Assembly (NCBI GenBank): GCA_023053545.1 | Contig: JAKZAN010000001.1 | Coordinates: forward strand, 11,118,565-11,182,564 | DNA from: Lepidurus packardi | Lineage: Eukaryota > Arthropoda > Branchiopoda > Notostraca > Triopsidae | Direction: 5' to 3' | DNA: 64,000 nt | Shown: positions 2,364 through 43,408 of the stretch, piece by piece | How the letters are laid out: each line of letters opens with the position of its first letter | Position numbering within the stretch: the first letter of the stretch is position 1 | Program-made: the position numbers and the translations under genes | The notes under the pieces: generated by a model | Databases searched by the model: none | Told to the model about the DNA's origin: nothing | What the model saw: the letters and a program-made list of their open reading frames with translations, nothing else

Positions 2364-5300
2364 ATGGCAGGAGCCAAGCCAGGAGTCCACGTTGTCCAAC
2401 TTCGACCGATCTCTGTTCCCAAGAGTATGCAAAATGGAGAAAAGTTTATCAAATGGGAAGAGGTAAAGTATCCTTTACCTTTTGTTTATTCCTATACGCA
2501 CACAAACATCCTTAGGAAAGTATTTCTAGCCAAAACGTCACCATGAACCGCCTTTTTGTCAGATTAAATGGATAGAATGGAATGTCGTTGTTTCACTGCT
2601 CTATTCATTTTTTGTTCTTTAAGGAAACCCTGCTATTGGGCGGGAAAACGTAGTGTGAAACTCGTTTAAGTTTCAAAGGAGCTTTTATGGCAAAGCATTT
2701 ATTCTACAGTGCTGCCGAAATAACGCGAGCTGACCTTTGAAACTTGCTAATGAGACTCGACTCGAGCAACTTACATCTTTGTTTTTTTCTGTCTTAGGAG
2801 TGGGCTTAAAAGTCTTCTATTTTGTACAGAAAGTTTAGAAGAAAATAAGAAAAATAAGGAAATAGTCTCGACTGGAGCTGTCTATTTTGTTCCAAGCACT
2901 TTTCTCAGATAACAGGTCTACTTCTCCGCCGTCATGCTTTTACCTTTTAGTGTTCTATTGTTTGTTTCCCTAAACCTTACACTTTGAGCATCCTATCCTT
3001 CTCAGCTTTTGCCACTCGTTACATTACATCAGATAAATAGATACACATTTCAAGTAAATGCTAGATTTCTTACGTTTTTTCACTTTTGTCGTTGGGTCCT
3101 TTCTTTTTTGGTATAAGTCGTTATGACAATTAACATCACCGGGGTTATGTTGGATTGACTCAATTTTTTTTATTTATTGTTGTAAAGTTAAAATCTTTGT
3201 AGGAATTAATATCAAGAGTCCATAAAGCTCCGTAAGAAGCTGATACGTCTTAAAAAATTTCTTAATTACGTCCTTTGTGGCCGTAAGCTAAAGTCTTCGT
3301 GGGAGTTCCAAGCTCCTCGTATTTTCTTTTTTTGGGGGTGCTTTTCAAGTTTGGAGAGATGTGAAGAGGTTGTTAGAGTGCCGACATAAGTTGAGTTTCT
3401 ACCATTTTTATTATTTGGGAAGATGCCCAGTTGCTTTGCTGCTTTTCTCCAGTACCCAGGATTTCGGAAAGGAATGAGATAATGATGCTCGCTGTACATT
3501 ATCGTTCCATATTGGGCTCATTCGCGTCGCACTACGTTCCGGAACTCGTCAGGATAGGCGTTCCCTACCAGTTTAATGTATAGTGTCTTGAACTTTTACT
3601 CGAAAAGCCGTAAATTAGTCTTACTTCACCGTCTACTATTTTCCCTTTTTTTACGTGTAAGCATGCTGGTATGTGCTTCTGAACACATACTCTAAATGCG
3701 AACGTAGATCAGGAATTCACTCATCTTGTGATTTCCGAATCTCACTTCACCGTCTACTATTTTTTCGATTTTTTTATACGGCTTTGTTTCTTCATAAAAC
3801 TTATTATTATTATTGTTATTGTAATGAAACGAACGCTGTTGTTAATAATAACAATACATATTTTATTTTATTTTTTTGTATAGGATTCCAATGCAATAAC
3901 TCCAGTTACGTTACGAGTGGATCAGAGCGGCTATTTCTTATACTGGACTGATCAAAATGAGGTAAACTACGTGAATCTTCCTTTTCGATTATTATTTCGC
4001 TCGTTACTTATTGCCAATATCTCAGTTGTGCGTCCAATATTGATCTTGTCTTGGGGAAAAAACTTTTTAAAGAAGTGTCTTAAAAAGTGCCTTAAAAGGC
4101 ATTTCTATACTCTCTATTCTACATCCAGCAATGTCTATCCATCCGTGCTGCGCTCCAATATAGCGTTTCCATCTCTCGCCACCCGCTCCGATGCACATGT
4201 ACATACATACGCAACACACACATACACAGTTTCGATCCGTTTACCCACTTTTTCTTTTTCCATTCGACATATACGGGAGTAAAGCTTCATCACAGAAGCC
4301 GAAGCAAAGAAGAATAAAGAAGCTCTAGATTTAGACATTGGGGCAAGTAAGCCTTGCTACAGCCAAGAAAACATGAAAGGACCATCCCCCACCGTAATGC
4401 AAACAAACCTTGAGGCCAATAAGTTGCGATCAACAAACTTTTTTTTTTTAATCTTCCTCTAAGTCAAGGTCTATATATTACCAGAACCCCTTGTGTGCAG
4501 ACTTCCCAGAACGAAACGTCAAAAAACTGTTCCGAAGATTTAATAGGGCAAACCTGGCTTTTCTTGTTATTGAGGATCTGTGATAACGGTGCCTTCTGAA
4601 GAAGGTAAATAGTTGTGATGTTTCCTCACTGATACTCCCAAAAAATATAAAAAATAGACGTATTTGAATGTGTGATGTACTTTGAGACAAGCGGGCAAAG
4701 CCACGTGATGTGACTGTAAAGCCAAACAGACACAACAGCCAAAAAAGAAAGAAGAAGCTCAACTTCCTCGCCAGGAAAGGGCCCCGCCTCCTAATTGGAA
4801 ATCAATGGCCCAGTAAGGACGCCCCCGGAGCATGCTGGTGTGTTGTATGGTAAGGGCTCTGCCGCTTACCGGGAGCCCTTTTACTTACTGACGATGACTT
4901 AAGAACAAGCCAAGCTTAGCGGAAAGCCTTAAAAGGGCTTAAAGTGCCGTAGATGATCACATAAGATATAAACAAAGGTATACATTGTGAGGATATATAA
5001 GCTTGTAAACGGTAAAAAAGGTTTAAGAAAAAAAAACGATAAAAGTGTTCAGTCGCGATATATCACTTGGCGCCGTATCGAATCCCATATCAGCTTTTTT
5101 GGTTTCCTTATAAGAAGGTGCGAGAGAAGTGAATTAGGTTTTACGGGATGGAAAACATCCAGGAGACCCGTTATGCGTCAGAAAAGTGGAAATTCTTATA
5201 GGGCTTGGACGTTGCCCTTCGTTTGGGATTTGTTTGGGGTTTCAAGGAATCGAGTTAAATCTCAGTAAAACAAAAACTCCCTTTGTAGATCTTTTTAAAC

Positions 5301-35059: not shown

Positions 35060-35844
35060 TTAGCGACAGGAATCAATAGCTTTCTGCATGAAGGTGACAA
35101 GGGCGGGAAAAGCCTTCGAGGTAGTAAGTACAGACTTTACACTAAAATGAACTTTAAGTTTGCTCAGTTCTCGTAGAAGTTCGGCTCTCTCCTTATTAAT
35201 TCTTCGGCAGTGAAACAATAAGTGGGGTAGGTCTTGTTTGGACCGGTCTTGGCAGGCACAGATGTCAGAGTCCGTTTTAGCAATTCGTTTTAAGTAGCAT
35301 TTAGTTGGGAAGTGTGTCGTTCTAAGTTGGATTAGCTTGCTTAAGATAGGTCTGGTTATTTGAAGGGATGCACTATCCTGAGAAGGGATAGTGATGAGAT
35401 CTTTCAATGGGTTTGTACAGTTTTGCCATCGTTCCCTCCATTGGGTCATTATCATTACGTCTATTTGTTCCAGGGCTTCTTTTTCGGACTTCGGACGTGT
35501 TTTCCATGCTTTAGCCGTGAGGAGTCTAGCTCTCTCTGAACAAGACAGGTACCGTTTATGCTTGGAGTATTTTGCTTGTGTGGGCCATTTATTCCAATTC
35601 CGTCTTGCGAAATTCCTTAGCATTGATTTCTGGAGTATAAGGTCCAGCGGAGGGAGATCCGCTTCCACTTCTAATGCTGCTGATGGCGTCGTTGATAGGG
35701 CTCCTGTGATAATAAGGAGTCCCCTTCGGAATAGTTGACTCAATGGGAGTAGTCCAGTCTGTGAGATGTTGTTCCAAGCTGCGTATCCGTACCTCAGTTT
35801 TGAGAGTATAGTGGCTTGAACAACATTTCTGAGTTGCTTGCAGG
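35060..35844 (-). pseudogene. Element B C-terminal region
   Basis: Reads LRNVVQATILSKLRYGYAAW, then an alpha-helical region and a C-terminal CACQ...HLLFHCRR zinc-like motif, ending at TAA/TAG near 35060. The upstream end abuts the hAT terminus at 35845. The relative at 19975-20349 shares the last 100 residues. Confidence 0.8.
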
Positions 35845-35851
35845 CAGGGCC

Positions 35852-35859
35852 GGATTAAG
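35852..35859 (+). other. Left 8-bp target duplication GGATTAAG of the inner transposon
   Basis: GGATTAAG precedes the terminus at 35860 and is repeated exactly at 40625-40632, right after the other terminus. Confidence 0.9.
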
Positions 35860-35929
35860 CAAGGGGTTCGCAACTCGTGTTTAACTTCGTACACCCTGAC
35901 CATTCAGCTAAAAATGTTGAAATTTTTAA

Positions 35930-36192
35930 CGAGTATAACTTGTTTTAGCTTTTTAACTGAACAGTTTAACTAAGTTTAACATTTTAACCATGCAACTCTG
36001 TGTTTAACTGAGTTTAACAGAGTTTAACAGAGTTTAGCAGAGTTTAACGGAGTTTAACTGAGTTTAACCGAGAGTTTAACAGTTTAACGGAGTTTATTGA
36101 GTTTAACCGAGAGTTTAACAGAGTTTAACAGAGTTTAACGGAGTTCAACAGAGTTTAACGGAGTTTAACTGAGTTTAACCGAGAGTTTAAAC
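35930..36192 (+). repeat. Left subterminal AGTTTAAC array
   Basis: About eighteen GTTTAAC words, mostly as GAGTTTAAC spaced 10-13 bp apart, fill the left subterminal region. Such arrays in DNA transposons commonly bind the transposase. Confidence 0.9.
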
Positions 36193-36461
36193 CGAAACTC
36201 TATACCTGTTCGCTGTAGTGAAAAAAAGTAAAAAAAGGTCCAACGAGCGAGGGCTCCAGCGAGAGCTCTCGTTTGAAACATCCGGTATACCGCGTGGGAA
36301 AGTAAAGAAGTAAAAAGTTTCCAACTTCTTGCAGATCGAGGCTTCCCCTTTCAAAAACGAGTCATAACACAGAAAAATTTTTGAGTTTGGATTTGCGTTA
36401 TTCTGAGCTCAGTCTGAGAAAGAACGTCTTAGAACATAGTGAAGATTGGAATTACATAGCA

Positions 36462-37403
36462 ATGTCGGAAACCGTAGAAACACTGGCGGATGATCCGGAG
36501 TTAACCAGCGAACAGCGATTCCTTCAGGAATTAATTAAGTTGGGCAATCTACGCCCACACATAGCTGAACTCCTAAAAACTTTGGGTTACTGTACCTGGG
36601 AAACAGTCGCGGAGATAGATACTGACGCTTTGAAACAGATGGAAGCTTTTGCAAGGACAAAACTAGTAAAGCGATGGGCTAGTAAGTCGGAAGAAGACCG
36701 AAAAAGAGTTTTTGGAGACTTTTTTTGTGACACTCCAGAAGAATTTGAAATTTTAGGCGGCGAATTGGCCCAGTTGAAACGTGCCATAGAATACGGAAAG
36801 AAAAAAAGTGCCGGTTTTGAAATATTAGCTAAGCCTTTGGCAAAAAAGCCCCGCCTTCAAGCAGTGCCGAAAAACACAGGAAATTCAGAAGCTTACCAAC
36901 CTTCTATGCAAAACTTGGCGGAAGTCTCGGGAGTTGCTGGTCCGTCTGGTACCGCACCTAATCTTACGTCACAGCCTGCGACAGTTCCCTTACTTATTAA
37001 AAAGGTAACTGCATGGATTGAAAGCCACATAGAAGAGCTGTCATTTGCTTCGGAAGATCTTGAATTTCCAAGTGAAGAAGATGCATTAGGCAAAAAGTCA
37101 ATACCTATTAAGTGTCTGCGATGTAAGACAAACTTCAGTTGTTTAAGAATAAAGAACGGTCTTTATTGGAATTTCGGATCCGTTACGCGGCATCTGTCAC
37201 AGAAACATGATAGAAAGATGGGCGAAATTAGTGGCTGTCGTGCCAACACTGTCAAGAACTACTTCGTCAATAACCAACCCAATTCTGCAGCAATTGCCGC
37301 GCCTCCACAAGCTAACCACGAGGTTACCTCAGTTGTCAATATAGATATTGACGAGGAAACAGAGATTTTGGATGAAGACTCCACAGCGGAGCTGGGTTTT
37401 TAA
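36462..37403 (+). CDS. Zinc-finger protein of the inner transposon
   Basis: 313 residues from ATG 36462; an upstream in-frame extension to 36381 lacks an ATG. The N-terminal third is helical (LTSEQRFLQELIKLGNL, LKTLGYCTWETVAEID). A lysine-rich KKPRLQAVPKN looks like a nuclear signal. Near residues 220-260 a BED/C2H2-like finger is visible: CLRCKTNF, then HLSQKH. The C-terminus is acidic. It probably binds element DNA, such as the AGTTTAAC arrays; that is inference. It may be the first exon of the downstream gene: a phase-compatible junction exists between GAG|GTTACC (donor near 37321) and an AG at about 37419. I do not recognise the protein. Confidence 0.75.
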   Translation: MSETVETLADDPELTSEQRFLQELIKLGNLRPHIAELLKTLGYCTWETVAEIDTDALKQMEAFARTKLVKRWASKSEEDRKRVFGDFFCDTPEEFEILGGELAQLKRAIEYGKKKSAGFEILAKPLAKKPRLQAVPKNTGNSEAYQPSMQNLAEVSGVAGPSGTAPNLTSQPATVPLLIKKVTAWIESHIEELSFASEDLEFPSEEDALGKKSIPIKCLRCKTNFSCLRIKNGLYWNFGSVTRHLSQKHDRKMGEISGCRANTVKNYFVNNQPNSAAIAAPPQANHEVTSVVNIDIDEETEILDEDSTAELGF

Positions 37404-37417
37404 TAACGGGAGCTACT

Positions 37418-40164
37418 GAGACCCACAGTGCTCCCGTGAAATGGAATAGTCGGGTGTATAGGCGTCAAGAAATGCGAAGAAATCTGGATGAAAGAGACAG
37501 CTTACAGCCTCGGATAACCGAATATTACAAAGTGCTAAACGTTTTAAAGAAACTGGAGCGGGACAACGTACTTCTAAGAGACCTTTGTAAGGAACAGCGA
37601 GATCGTATCAGCGTTATAGCTAATTGCTTTGGTTCAGTTAAGCAATTGTCTACCTTATGCCAAGCAAAAGGCAGCCAGCAAAGCTTACTAGTTAGACTGT
37701 TAAATTCAGCTGTTAGAAATTCCCAGAAAGATCGTCATGGGTTTCGATACGACGACGAAAGTTTGGTACGGTTTGCATCGTACGTATGGATTGTTGGAGG
37801 AAGAACACTCTATCAGACGCTTGTCACGAATATGATAGGCTGTTTACCTAGTCCAAGGTCAATCGAAGCCAAAGTTAATGAGCACGTGCGTTCGTTTGGA
37901 GAAGGAGAGGTTCAAGTGGAAAAATTGAAAGCCTACTTAGACAATAACGGTTTTCCTTGCGTTGTTGCGTTATCCGAAGACGCTACCAGTATAACTGGAA
38001 AGCGTGAATACTCCTCTGAGACAAACACAGTGATAGGCTTTAGTTTGCCCATCGGAGTAAACGGAGTACCAGTAATTGGAATCAATGAAGCAAATAGCCT
38101 AGCGGACTTAGTTCGGTTGTACAGAACGTTGGACGTTGCTACAAACGTTTTCGTAGTGATGGCGCAGCCGTTGGCAATCGGAGCATCCCCTATCTGTATT
38201 TGCGTTTTTGGTAGCAACAACCGCTTTACGAGCGAAGATGTCAAACGACGACTAGACTATGTTTCAGAAGTACTGTGCCAATCTGGAATCGAGGTCCTCA
38301 CGTACGCCACTGATGGGGACAGTCGAGAAATGAAGCTAATGAGACAAGAGTTGCAGCTTGGTGGCAATTGTAAAGAATTATTCTTTAGATATTTCTTGGT
38401 CTGCAAGGGTTTGACATTAACTTATTTTCAGGTGGTGTTTTAAATGGCTGGCGCTGGTTTTATGCAAATCCCTTTGCAAAGATAATTCCCTTGCAAGATA
38501 GTCCACACCTGGGAGCAAAATTCCGAGTACGACTGCTAAAGAAGGAAAAAATTCTTCCTTTTGGAGACCATATTGCAACTCCCATCGATATAGAGCAACT
38601 TCGTCAGACAATAGGAAAAGACGTCCATCTCATTCGTGACCGTGATCTTGATCAGCGCGATAAAATGAACTACGACGGCGTCGAGAGAATTAGCAGCCCG
38701 AATGTCGTTTCCTTGTTAGAAACTCACATTGCTACTTCCAAGGCCACTTGCTTTTACTTAAAGCTCTTGCATTTTTCGACAAGCGCCTTCCTAGAAAAGG
38801 ATTTAGATCCAAGCGAACGTATATACCGAATTTGGTACGTAGTTTTCGGATTGAGACTTTGGCGCAAATGGATGCAATGTGATAAAGTGTATTCCCTTCA
38901 GGATAATTTTGTCACATTGAACATTTATTTGTGCGCCGAAATCAATGCTCACAGCTTGATTCTAATCATCAGGAAACTTCGTGATACCAAGAGGCATCAT
39001 CTATTTTTGCCGCATTGCATGAGCAGTCAGCCTTGTGAGCAGTTTTTCAGGTCAGCTAGGGCGTGCTCAACTACTGGTACAAGTCAGGTGAATTTTTCGC
39101 TTAAGGATTTTATTACCTCGCGTTGTAAAAAAATTGATTGCACCCTGCTCCTTCATTCAACCAGTGAAAAAGACGGCATTACTTACCCAACGTTTGAGCG
39201 CCACAAGAAGAAATACGGTCAGGGAAGTGAAAAAAATTCTAAAATTCTGCCGACAGACGTAGAAATCGAAGCTGTAGCTTGCAAAGCCATGCGTGACAGT
39301 GAGCATGATTTGGAGTGCTTAGGTGTTTCTTTCGACATAGAACATCCTGAAACGAAGGTGGATTTTGACAGGAAACTGCAATATTCCTCGCCACCTGCTG
39401 ATGATTCCACTTATGGCATATTTGAAGACGAAGAAACGGAGAGACTCGAAGCAGGTGAAGCTATCAGTTCAATAGAGACGATCGAGGATGACGACGACAT
39501 AGACCTTGCGTTACTTGCTTCGCTAAGTAAGATTCAAGTACGGGAATTCGGAGGAAGTAGTCTAACGGAGCAGCCTTCGAATACCGCGATAGACGCTCGT
39601 TCTCCTTTCCTCAAGATTCCTGTAGGGGATGACTTTAAAGTCGTTAAGAAGCGCACCCTGTGCTGGTATTTGTCGAGTGACTGTGTCCGCTTGAGTAATG
39701 ATAGAATTACCCGTGTTACTCAGGCAAGCCTGGTATCCAGACTGGGAAAAAGAAACTATAATTCTAGAATCCCTCGGAAAGAAGATGAGATTCGAGTTGG
39801 AGAATGGTGTGCCTTTAGGGAACATAAAGGGAAAAGATTTACTAAACCATCGATGGTACTCTTAGGACGCGTTCTGGGCTTCGGCTTTTTGCAAGTAGAT
39901 ACAAAAAAAAAGAAGTTCATCGATTTGAGTTGCCCAATTAATGAAAGTAATATGGGAGCCCTATGTACATGGTATACATTCGATATGGACACTGAAGAAA
40001 TCAAAGAATGTAATGTACACCAACACGGCTATCACCCTTTGAAAACTTACCTATGTACACTTCCAGTACCTGTCGTGAAAAATGTTGAGAACAATTTTAC
40101 TCTATTTTACTCGTCTGAAAGTGTAGTTCAGGTACGACAACTTATAGAAAGTGCAATATCCTAG
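37418..40164 (+). CDS. Putative DDE transposase of the inner transposon, one intron
   Basis: Coding runs from about 37418 (no ATG at the start, so an upstream exon is likely) to 38369, then a 62-bp GT/AG intron, then 38432-40164. Phase 1 is kept across it, giving about 890 residues. A coiled coil (LKKLERDNVLLRDLCKEQ) opens it. A candidate triad is visible: Asp in LSEDATSITGKREYSSE (codon 37979-37981), Asp in YATDGDSREMK (38312-38320) and Glu in QPCEQFFRSARA (39037-39039). Between the last two lie WFYANPFAKIIPLQDSPHLG and RDLDQRD. The 3' third is acidic and variable. I recall similar multicopy proteins in cnidarians and fishes but cannot name a superfamily. No internal stop occurs. Confidence 0.72.
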
Positions 40165-40189
40165 AGTCTTAACAGAAATACACTTGGGT

Positions 40190-40585
40190 TTCCTTATGCT
40201 AATATTTTACAGTTCAGATTTTGAATTTTTTGTACTTCGCTTTACAACTTGGGTCTTTTTAACAGAAATTTAAACTTTTTAACCGAAGTTTTAACTTTTT
40301 AACCGAAGTTTTAACTTTTCAACAAGAAGTTTTAACTTTTTAACCAAAGTTTAACTTTTCAGCAAGAAGTTTTAACTTTTTAACCAAAGTTTAACTTTTC
40401 AACAAGAAGTTTTAACTTTTTAACGAAAGTTTAACTTTTCAACAAGAAGTTTTAACTTTTTAACCAAAGTTTAACTTTTTAACCGAAGTTTAACTTTTAA
40501 ACCGAAGTTTAACAAAGTTTAACAGTTTAACCCATTTTTTAACTGTTTTAACCGTAAGATTACTTTTGGTTAAAAAAAAAAGTTT
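40190..40585 (+). repeat. Right subterminal AGTTTAAC / TTTTTAACC array
   Basis: Alternating AAGTTTTAACTTTTTAACC and AGTTTAACTTTTCAAC units of about 20-35 bp repeat more than ten times. It is the counterpart of the left array, with the AGTTTAAC word in the same orientation. Confidence 0.88.
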
Positions 40586-40776
40586 AACCCTCGTACACCT
40601 ACCAAAGGAGTTACGAACCCCTTGGGATTAAGCCTTTACGGGCCCCTAGGCTGACGTATCCGCGGGCCCCCCCCCCACTTTTTTGACTTCCTTAAATTAA
40701 AAATGCAGACAGAGTATTTGAGAAATAGAGCGGAAATGCAGAATGTATTGATACCCGACAAGAGTTAGTGTGCGAG

Positions 40777-43408
40777 TTAAACGGATACTTTTCGTGCTTT
40801 TTTTCTTGCAAAGTCAGCAATAATCTCTTTAAAGTCCAGAGAGCGCATGACCTCACTCTCAATGCACAATAAACTGAGAGAATTAAGCCTACAATCAGTC
40901 ATAGTGGTGCGAATAACACTTTTTACACGGTTCAGTGTAGAGAAGGAGCGTTCGCCTTGGCAATTAGTGACGAACATTGAAAGGTAAATTCGCAATACAG
41001 TGTTGACGTTTGGAAATGTCTCGCGGACGCCAGGCTGAGATGAAATCTGATAGAGTATTATTTCGTAGCTTTGTTGAGATTGTCCGTTGTCAGTCGTTGG
41101 GGATGTCTTCACAAATTCGGTAAAATGAACGAATTCCTCAGGAAGGGATTCTTCCAAATCTCCTGTAAAATACAAACATATTAAGTTCTAAAAAACTGGA
41201 ATAATGTACAATAGTACAATAATGACAGAACTATACTATAGAATTAATCCTACCTGGATAAGCTCGGACAAGTGTTGTCGCCGATTCGCGTATGTCTTTC
41301 GGAGAGAGCGTGTGGAGACAATGGAGAAAGCCGAAGAGACTGCAAACTGTTGTGTATGCTCCCAGGCGCCGTTCCAAAGCTGCGGCTAGCTGATCCACAA
41401 TAGGAAGAAAAACTTTCGTCCTGAAATTGTCCCGTGCTGAAAGACTTGTCTCTTCAGCTGGACCCTCGTATGCCTTCATCCTTGCACTGCGCGATCGCTT
41501 CCTTGACGTCTCTTCCGTGTAGTGTAGATTGCCAGACTTCTGTTTCCCATTCTTCTCCATGTCTTCGAATTGGTTTCTGAGCGTTTCGATGTATGACTTC
41601 AAAGATGCCAACAACTGTACAGCTTTATTCAAATGCATACTTTCGCTTTGCAGAGATATGCTTGTCTCATTGATACGCTCCAAAGCGGTCCCCCACAGGT
41701 CTGTCAAAATCCCATATTCAAGCTGCTTCATTTTCGTCAACAGTCCGGCGGCTTCACGCTTCGTTTCGGGTTTTTCTTGATCAGACTTCTGAATGGCGTC
41801 CAACGTTTGTCTTACTTCACTGTAGCTACGCGTGATTGCTTTTGTTGCTTCTGCCTGAGCAGACCAACGTGTTTTGCTGAGACTTTTGACGACTGGATTG
41901 TTCTCAAGAAATTCTCTCATGACAGACCACCTTCTAGTGGATGCGCTGAAGAAGTTATAGAGGTTCTGCAGAAAATCGAAAAATGCTGTCGCTGCGGGAA
42001 TATTTCTGACTGCTTCGGTTCCAACGAGATTCAGGGAATGGCCAAAACATGGTATGTGATGAGCCTGTGGATTATTTTCACGTATCAATGCTTGTACGCC
42101 GTGATATTTACCTGCCATATTAGAGGCATTGTCATAGCATTGTCCTCGACAGTTGGCAATCTCAATGTCCATCTCACACAAAAAATTAAGCAGGTTGTTA
42201 GTTAATTCTTTGGCAGTATGATTTTCCATGCCTATGAATTTCACAAAGCGTTCAACAGGAATGGTTGCATTCGGAGGAATATAACGAAAAGTAACTGTGC
42301 AGCGATCGACGTTGCTTGCATCAGGAGTTGAATCTAGAGAAATGGAGTAATACTTTGCACTTTTAATTTCAGCTACAATTTTGTCCAACACTTGCTTTCC
42401 CATTATGTCAATGAATTCATTACAAACAGTGGAGGACAAATATGACACGTATCCTCGACCTTCACCTTTGCCTTGCAACGTTTTACTCTTCTCAATATGA
42501 CCAGCTAGAAATGGATCGAATTTGGAAATCAACTCCAGTATCCCAATGAAGTTTCCGTTTGTTTTAGAACCTAGAAGTTCATCTTCACCTCTAAAGGCCA
42601 AGCCCCTTTCACAAAGAAATGTTATCACCTCTACGATGCGTTCAAGGATTGCTCGCCAGTATGCACACTCTGTTTCATATTGTTGCTCCAAGCCTGTATA
42701 GACACGAGCCTCCGTTTGTCTGAGGTAATTAATCTTTCCAATTGCTCCAATATGCGTAGTACTTCTTTCGTGGCTTGTCAAGCGTGCAGAGGCATTTTTC
42801 CAATCATTATATCCACCCTTCGCGAAGGAATTTTGTTCCGAGAATAATTTGCATGGGAAACAGAATACCTTTCCAGTCGTGGGGGAATAGCAAAGCCAAG
42901 ATCTATTTATCTGCATATGAGTGAGCGGATGCGTACACGTGAACGAACTTTTGGAACAATATCGAGCCTGCCGATCCCCATCCACGCTTTTAGAGACTTC
43001 AAATCCATCATCGGAATGCTGACATTCTTCGCCACCTCGTTCCACCCAATACAATCGCATTTCCGTGGAAACAGTCTCAGGCCATTGTGCCAAATCGGTT
43101 ACAGTCATCTTTATGCCTCCCATTTCACTATGTGATTGACGTGAATGAGAATCACAACACTCACCAGTTTCTGGTATAGCACTTGAGACTGGAGTTTCTG
43201 CTTTGATATTGTCTTCGCTTCCTTCAACTGCTTCTTCATCTGCTGGTTCAGAAGGTTCAGTAACATTAACACTTTTAGCAGGTTCATTTCGTGGCAGGAA
43301 GGTTGTTATCTTTGGGATTTTGGCCAACACCTTGTCGAGACGCTCCTTTTCCTCTTGTTGTACGCGCCTTTTCTCTGCACCCGATTTGTGATGATATGAA
43401 CCAGACAT
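40777..43408 (-). CDS. ZMYM1-like hAT transposase, intact
   Basis: Two minus-strand exons, 41254-43408 and 40777-41162, with a 91-bp GT/AG intron and phase kept, encode 846 residues with no stop. The ATG (43406-43408) opens MSGSYHHKSGAEKRR. A TTF-type zinc finger follows (WLCYSPTTGKVFCFPCKLF, then HERSTTH), then a DUF4371 segment (GLAFRGEDELLG, FDPFLAGHI). Catalytic-core blocks are YSISLDSTPDASNVDRC and CRGQCYDNASNMAG, and the C-terminal hAT dimerisation block is CQGERSFSTLNRVKSVIRTTM. hAT transposases cut and paste their element and leave 8-bp duplications. The element's own left end has been separated from the gene by the inner transposon, but all coding sequence is present. The complete frame suggests recent activity. 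Confidence 0.88.

Follow-up and report, generated by a model that had tools for sequence, protein, structure and literature searches.

We analysed a 64,000-nucleotide stretch of Lepidurus packardi DNA (assembly GCA_023053545.1, contig JAKZAN010000001.1, positions 11,118,565 to 11,182,564 of the forward strand), hereafter the window, in which a 4,765-bp DNA transposon lies at 35860-40624. The element carries two overlapping open reading frames (ORFs) on the plus strand, ORF1 at its left and the spliced ORF2, which encodes the transposase, at its right. An initial sequence-only reading had described 17-bp inverted ends with one mismatch, an exact 8-bp duplication and repeat arrays at both ends, and we confirmed each of these features. 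End comparison placed the left terminal inverted repeat (CAAGGGGTTCGCAACTC) at 35860-35876 on the plus strand and the right one (CAAGGGGTTCGTAACTC) at 40608-40624 on the minus strand, and the target site duplication GGATTAAG is identical on both flanks (35852-35859 and 40625-40632). Tandem Repeats Finder (TRF) delimited the plus-strand arrays to 36002-36190 (143-331 of the element) and 40255-40513 (4396-4654 of the element).

The home genome of the window (108.6 Mb) was searched with the coding region of the element. The 14 matches included the window copy, four more long copies with 99-100% identity to it, pieces of one further copy on C16, and a sister subfamily of about 73% identity, to which the copy L035 belongs, plus decayed fragments. 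Other copies with the same ends, implied by the sequence-only reading, were also found: a 16-base end pattern occurred 71 times versus 2 for the reversed control, and shorter copies of 1.0-1.7 kb carry matching ends. We then considered 18 paired-end copies (the window copy, L010-L013 and L023-L035, the last group drawn from the first 100 of 126 end places in the genome). The 8-bp duplication was exact in 13 of these, matched at 7 of 8 bases in two, and was absent at L012, L026 and L029. When the joined flanks of the window copy were used as query, 25 matches were obtained, of which 2 were its own flanks and 17 contained the left flank only. The other six (L061, L062 and L064-L067) span the junction, contain GGATTAAG once and lack the element, and thus represent paralogous empty sites, although L061 and L067 have an outer flank in common and could reflect duplication of one site. 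Over its full length L010 shows 3 substitutions relative to the window copy, and its target duplication is a different one. Both reading frames remain open in the window copy and L010, whereas L011, L012 and L013 contain stops. We conclude that this is a genuine element that moved recently, in line with the earlier judgement that it is apparently intact and recently mobile. Among the disrupted copies, the one on C16 (G000:C16:198279-224094) has its pieces spread across some 25 kb, and another (L012/L040) contains extra sequence and is without a target duplication.

Read from the slip site described below, exon 1 of ORF2 (37400-38369) encodes a coiled coil, a helix-turn-helix (HTH) and the first part of an RNase H domain, including aspartates at 37979-37981 and 38312-38314. 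It is followed by a 62-nt GT-AG intron (38370-38431) and by exon 2 (38432-40164), which encodes an insertion domain, the catalytic glutamate (39037-39039) and a C-terminal domain and ends in the stop codon. The total of 900 residues accords with the spliced ORF of about 890 residues reported initially, and L035 has a 55-nt GT-AG intron at the matching place (read by eye) with an open joined frame. The three acidic positions proposed as catalytic Asp, Asp and Glu (DDE) proved invariant in 50 aligned relatives and align with those of P transposase in a local hhalign run. A search for relatives of the transposase returned 340 proteins, including proteins of insects and water fleas, and no Pfam domain was assigned to any of the 120 listed, thus exposing a large P-type family. 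Viral and bacterial or archaeal contigs scanned with the transposase profile yielded no confirmed match. An Rfam search over the element gave two matches far under their gathering scores, neither of them a frameshift element.

The class assignment depends on a structure model of the relative P0037. Its best fold match was P transposase, with a lead of 15 Z units over the next superfamily; the structurally aligned residues are about 14% identical, and the model contains the features of a P-type core: an HTH, a split RNase H with the DDE residues and a helical insertion domain. A Hermes-like (hAT) fold was considered as the best match and rejected, since P transposase matches best. Thus, of the initial proposal of a distinct superfamily or a divergent P/hAT relative, kinship with P stood by fold, whereas hAT and a distinct superfamily did not, and the expectation that no named superfamily would match was overturned by structure prediction. 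No Pfam family passed the cut-off in the window protein or ORF1, and none was reported for the relatives listed; at E<=10 the window protein matched PF21787 only. The hAT C-terminal dimerisation domain, which the sequence-only reading had also failed to see, was not recognised in this search, nor was it among the best 25 of 40 Pfam families for 50 relatives. Sequence searches of solved structures gave only weak, irrelevant matches or, in one case, none, and the only match at E<=0.001 in a viral structure library was weak and hAT-like. The Pfam model of the P-type insertion domain matched 25 places in the genome, and our element is not listed among them. By-eye inspection of the alignments suggested that two of the lysines among the GTP-contacting residues of P transposase (as given in available excerpts of PMC7776569) may have counterparts. 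Two observations count against the assignment: the modelled protein is only 33-35% identical to the window protein, whose exons entered as rows of its alignment, and the F/D/N and D528 positions of P seem not to be kept (by eye). With these weighed, the fold model makes it close to certain that the catalytic core is of P type.

One of the 25 insertion-domain matches, L071 (G000:C4:1084000-1087600), is a THAP-type P transposase with 972 open residues, in which Pfam recognises THAP, HTH, RNase H and GBD. In contrast, no Pfam family, THAP included, was found at E<=10 in ORF1 of the window copy or of L035, in keeping with the initial statement that a THAP domain is lacking. Because ORF1 gave no THAP match although this P copy yields one, we did not file the element as a canonical P element; it is a variant with a P-type core and a different DNA-binding end.

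ORF1 (36462-37403, 313 residues) was delimited from the ORF list, comparison with L035 and profile searches. Its N-terminal domain (residues 41-113, 36582-36800) is homologous to the N-terminal part of relatives that have a single ORF. It is followed by a C2H2/BED-like candidate zinc finger of the form C-x2-C ... H-x4-H (residues 218-249, 37113-37208), which reads CLRC ... HLSQKH. The finger had been called initially, and its residues are indeed retained in L035, although no Pfam match at E<=10 backs it. An N-terminal profile was built from segments of 55 relatives selected by length, a few of which lack the domain (P0051, P0070 and P0117). This profile matched ORF1 of the window (domain E 5e-10) and of L035 (1e-14), and of the 177 open frames in the window it matched ORF1 only, the best different frame scoring 0.53. 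In the reverse search, a profile of the two ORF1 sequences matched 18 of 120 relatives at E<=1e-3 and 23 of 120 at 0.01; 17 of the 18 matches begin within the first 16 residues of the relative, and the reversed control reached 0.58. P0070 and P0117 were not matched by this two-sequence profile. In the single-ORF relatives examined, the N-terminal domain is present and the finger absent (alignment, by eye); the D. magna relative forms a long branch. As the N-terminal domain is in frame with the transposase in these relatives, ORF1 and ORF2 should yield one chain. An ORF1 structure model from the two sequences had a mean predicted local distance difference test (pLDDT) value of 46.6 and was not used. 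P0065, P0070 and P0117 start with a basic stretch and a coiled coil resembling window ORF2 near 37450-37600 (by eye), which hints at a possible upstream ORF1 in these cases too.

Inspection of the ORF1/ORF2 junction revealed a candidate -1 frameshift cassette that the sequence-only reading had overlooked. ORF2 lies in the -1 frame relative to ORF1, and the two overlap by 28 nt. A slippery heptamer, G_GGT_TTT (37394-37400), is in phase with ORF1 and directly 5' of its TAA stop. A 5-nt spacer that begins with this stop (37401-37405) separates it from a 12-bp stem-loop (37406-37437) with a predicted stability of -19.5 kcal/mol, a candidate frameshift stimulator. Thus an in-phase X_XXY_YYZ heptamer, a spacer within 5-9 nt, a stable 3' structure and an open -1 frame are all present. 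According to available excerpts of PMC5009743, mammalian ribosomes slip at G_GGU_UUU more readily than at most other heptamers, and spacers usually measure 5-9 nt. The heptamer is the sole in-phase one in window ORF1, and after the slip only the -1 frame is open in both subfamilies. The hairpin is the most stable 40-nt stretch of 3,663 in the coding region of the window copy; in L035 it ranks 2 of 3,710, and the stretch ranked first overlaps it. The corresponding z-scores were -5.9 and -5.6, respectively, and none of 200 shuffles matched this stability. Across the two strands of the window there are 955 heptamers, of which 3 precede a fold of -17 kcal/mol or better: the 37394 site, an A7 run at 36230 in the leader of the element, and a minus-strand site. 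The four other window-type copies carry an identical cassette, and L035 has the same heptamer and hairpin. From these features we propose that a -1 frameshift probably joins ORF1 to ORF2.

Several results weigh against this proposal. Codon shuffling predicts 1.14 in-phase heptamers per ORF1, about the number observed, so it is the place of the heptamer and not its presence that is unusual; ORF1 of L035 has a second one, AAAAAAA at 1171. Over 60 nt the stability z-scores were just -2.8 and -3.1, with 2 of 200 shuffles as stable. Between the subfamilies, both partners differ in two of the 12 stem pairs, giving a covariation score that 49 of 500 shuffles reached; this control is weak because it involves three sequences and, in effect, two lineages. 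In the 24 codons after the slip site, substitutions fall on codon positions 5, 7 and 7 times, which discriminates no frame, and residue identity is 14/24 in the -1 frame versus 15/23 and 12/23 in the closed frames. By-eye comparison of hairpin-loop pairings found no pseudoknot homologous in both subfamilies, and no stand-alone ORF1 homolog was found at E<=0.01 among 7,999 candidates of 172-548 residues. An Rfam search over the element gave two matches far under their gathering scores, neither of them a frameshift element.

The alternative that deserves most attention is that the same P-type transposon fuses the N-terminal domain to the enzyme by splicing from a donor at 37005, dropping the finger, with the slip site and hairpin incidental or otherwise used. 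We regard this as unlikely, although a number of observations speak for it. Scored with a weight table, the donor AAG/GTAACT (GT at 37005-37006, plus strand) ranks 1 of 207 GT dinucleotides in the coding region of the window copy and its conserved L035 counterpart, AAG/GTAAAC, ranks 4 of 189, and both outscore the donors of the real intron. There are 54 formal frame-keeping GT-AG pairs at homologous places in the two subfamilies (37 when the range is shorter), and the five best of the 54 use donor 37005. Moreover, the element already has one real intron (62 nt), P elements join their ORFs by splicing (excerpts of PMC7776569), and the product would be a finger-less fusion like the relatives. 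However, the acceptors that this donor could use are weak, scoring from -1.8 to -9.8 in the window and from 1.4 to -3.5 in L035, far below the true-intron acceptors (6.9 and 5.5, respectively). Better acceptors lie beyond 37500 and would delete the basic stretch that insect relatives seemingly keep (by eye). The introns would span 416-593 nt in the window versus 62 for the known intron, the donor letters also code for conserved residues (KKV), and splicing leaves the hairpin unexplained. By summed score, no formal pair in the window reaches the true intron, with one tying to the first decimal at 5.6 (donor 36682), whereas one pair in L035 exceeds it (donor at 965); neither donor is in any shared pair among the ten best listed. 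The two routes could also coexist, with unspliced RNA giving ORF1 and the frameshift product and spliced RNA the finger-less form.

The remaining alternatives fare worse. Synthesis of two separate proteins, with ORF2 begun by re-initiation or at an internal AUG like that of PIF/Harbinger elements with two ORFs, would suit the small 28-nt overlap, and two-ORF DNA transposons exist (PMC5543537, in part); yet the relatives have the ORF1 N-terminal domain and transposase in one frame, and the subfamilies have no AUG at a common place near the ORF2 start, making this very improbable. More remote still is slippage of RNA polymerase at the T5 run, adding one U to give the fused frame. Transcriptional slippage does stand in for frameshifting in some bacterial insertion sequence (IS) elements, as excerpts of PMC5009743 state, but the run is just five T long, and a hairpin 5 nt downstream suits a ribosome better than a polymerase. 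At the level of class, the absence of a Pfam family past cut-off, of a relevant sequence match to a solved structure and of a detected THAP might suggest an element founding a superfamily of its own, apart from P, hAT and all others. The fold match and the alignment of the DDE residues with P largely refute this idea, leaving it with very little probability. We therefore retain the frameshift reading: this is a recently active P-type cut-and-paste transposon with no THAP found, whose DNA-binding part in ORF1 is probably joined to the enzyme by a -1 frameshift.

Inspection of the element ends revealed candidate binding sites for the transposase. The internal site TCGTACAC occurs at position 28 from the left end (35887-35894) and 26 bp from the right end (40591-40598), both on the plus strand, and these distances are the same in both subfamilies. 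The arrays are less constant. GTTTAAC is present in 27 copies at the two ends, all in one orientation and none in the opposite orientation within the element, and 25 of the 27 have the form AGTTTAAC, which recurs in the approximately 10-bp units of the left array. GTTTAAC is absent from L035, in which TRF found an array of TTTGTAGC/TTGTAACC-like units at the left end and similar words were seen at the right end by eye but not by TRF. From this distribution we infer that TCGTACAC would be the primary transposase site and the arrays auxiliary sites.

In the mechanism that we propose, the majority of ribosomes would terminate at the ORF1 stop codon, releasing a DNA-binding protein composed of the new N-terminal domain and the C2H2/BED-like finger. 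Some ribosomes would slip one base back at G_GGU_UUU, aided by the hairpin 5 nt downstream, and read through ORF2, from which one short intron is spliced, to produce a full transposase of about 1,210 residues. This fusion, as the presumptive active enzyme, would attach to the internal TCGTACAC site as well as to the subterminal arrays and pair the ends, which would then be cut and inserted with an 8-bp stagger. If this is true, the ribosome would fix the ratio of an ORF1 repressor to the full enzyme. P elements regulate their transposase through splicing and repressor forms; a relative under ribosomal control would have solved the problem of transposase regulation independently.

The element resembles P and THAP9-type elements in its 8-bp duplication, DDE residues in a split RNase H, helical insertion domain, HTH, short inverted ends with internal sites, and internally deleted copies. 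It differs from them in that a separate ORF encodes a new N-terminal domain and a C2H2/BED-like finger, with no THAP found, and in having a candidate -1 frameshift, an extra C-terminal domain, long subterminal arrays, and inverted ends of 17 bp versus 31 bp in P. With hAT elements (Hermes) it has in common the 8-bp duplication, subterminal repeats and the idea of a BED-type finger.

Programmed -1 frameshifting is a typical feature of viruses, of retroelements and of insertion sequences in bacteria, and the ORF1/ORF2 architecture is like that of IS orfA/orfB. In such bacterial IS elements, a DNA-binding ORF upstream and a catalytic ORF downstream are fused by frameshifting, which is often -1, and the upstream product can itself regulate (excerpts of PMC5009743). 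Since the transposase type and host domain are unrelated, the likeness is one of expression logic and not of descent. The frameshifts of the ciliate elements compared here are +1. These are eukaryotic DNA transposons with frameshifting, yet not P-type; frameshifting is reported or required in Euplotes Tec and telomere-bearing Oxytricha elements (parts of PMC5009743; Tec2 in PMC5405496), and the Tec2 gene with frameshifting, known here from a title in the reference list of PMC5405496, encodes a tyrosine recombinase, unlike a P-type transposase. Among the literature matches listed, seen in part and with subscription journals, Repbase and Dfam outside their scope, we found neither -1 frameshifting in an animal DNA transposon nor a THAP-less P-type family with such an ORF1. 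Frameshifting in "insertion sequences and transposons" is mentioned generally in the portions covered of PMC7776569, PMC5009743, PMC7618472, PMC5405496 and PMC7175516. Somewhat more cautiously, we suggest that the element may well represent an arthropod P-type clade in which THAP was swapped for another module and transposase output is set by -1 frameshifting, in convergence with IS elements.

The element is inserted about 14 bp inside the end (CAGGGCCGGATTAAG) of a second repeat (35845-35859 and 40625-41187), of which six near-identical uninterrupted copies were found. A minus-strand ORF at 40777-41187 resembles the hAT C-terminal block (by eye). On the other side, a 264-residue open frame on the minus strand (35060-35854) looks like the tail of a long interspersed nuclear element (LINE) reverse transcriptase (by eye), and the left flank over this frame recurs at 15 other places in the genome with 96-99% identity.

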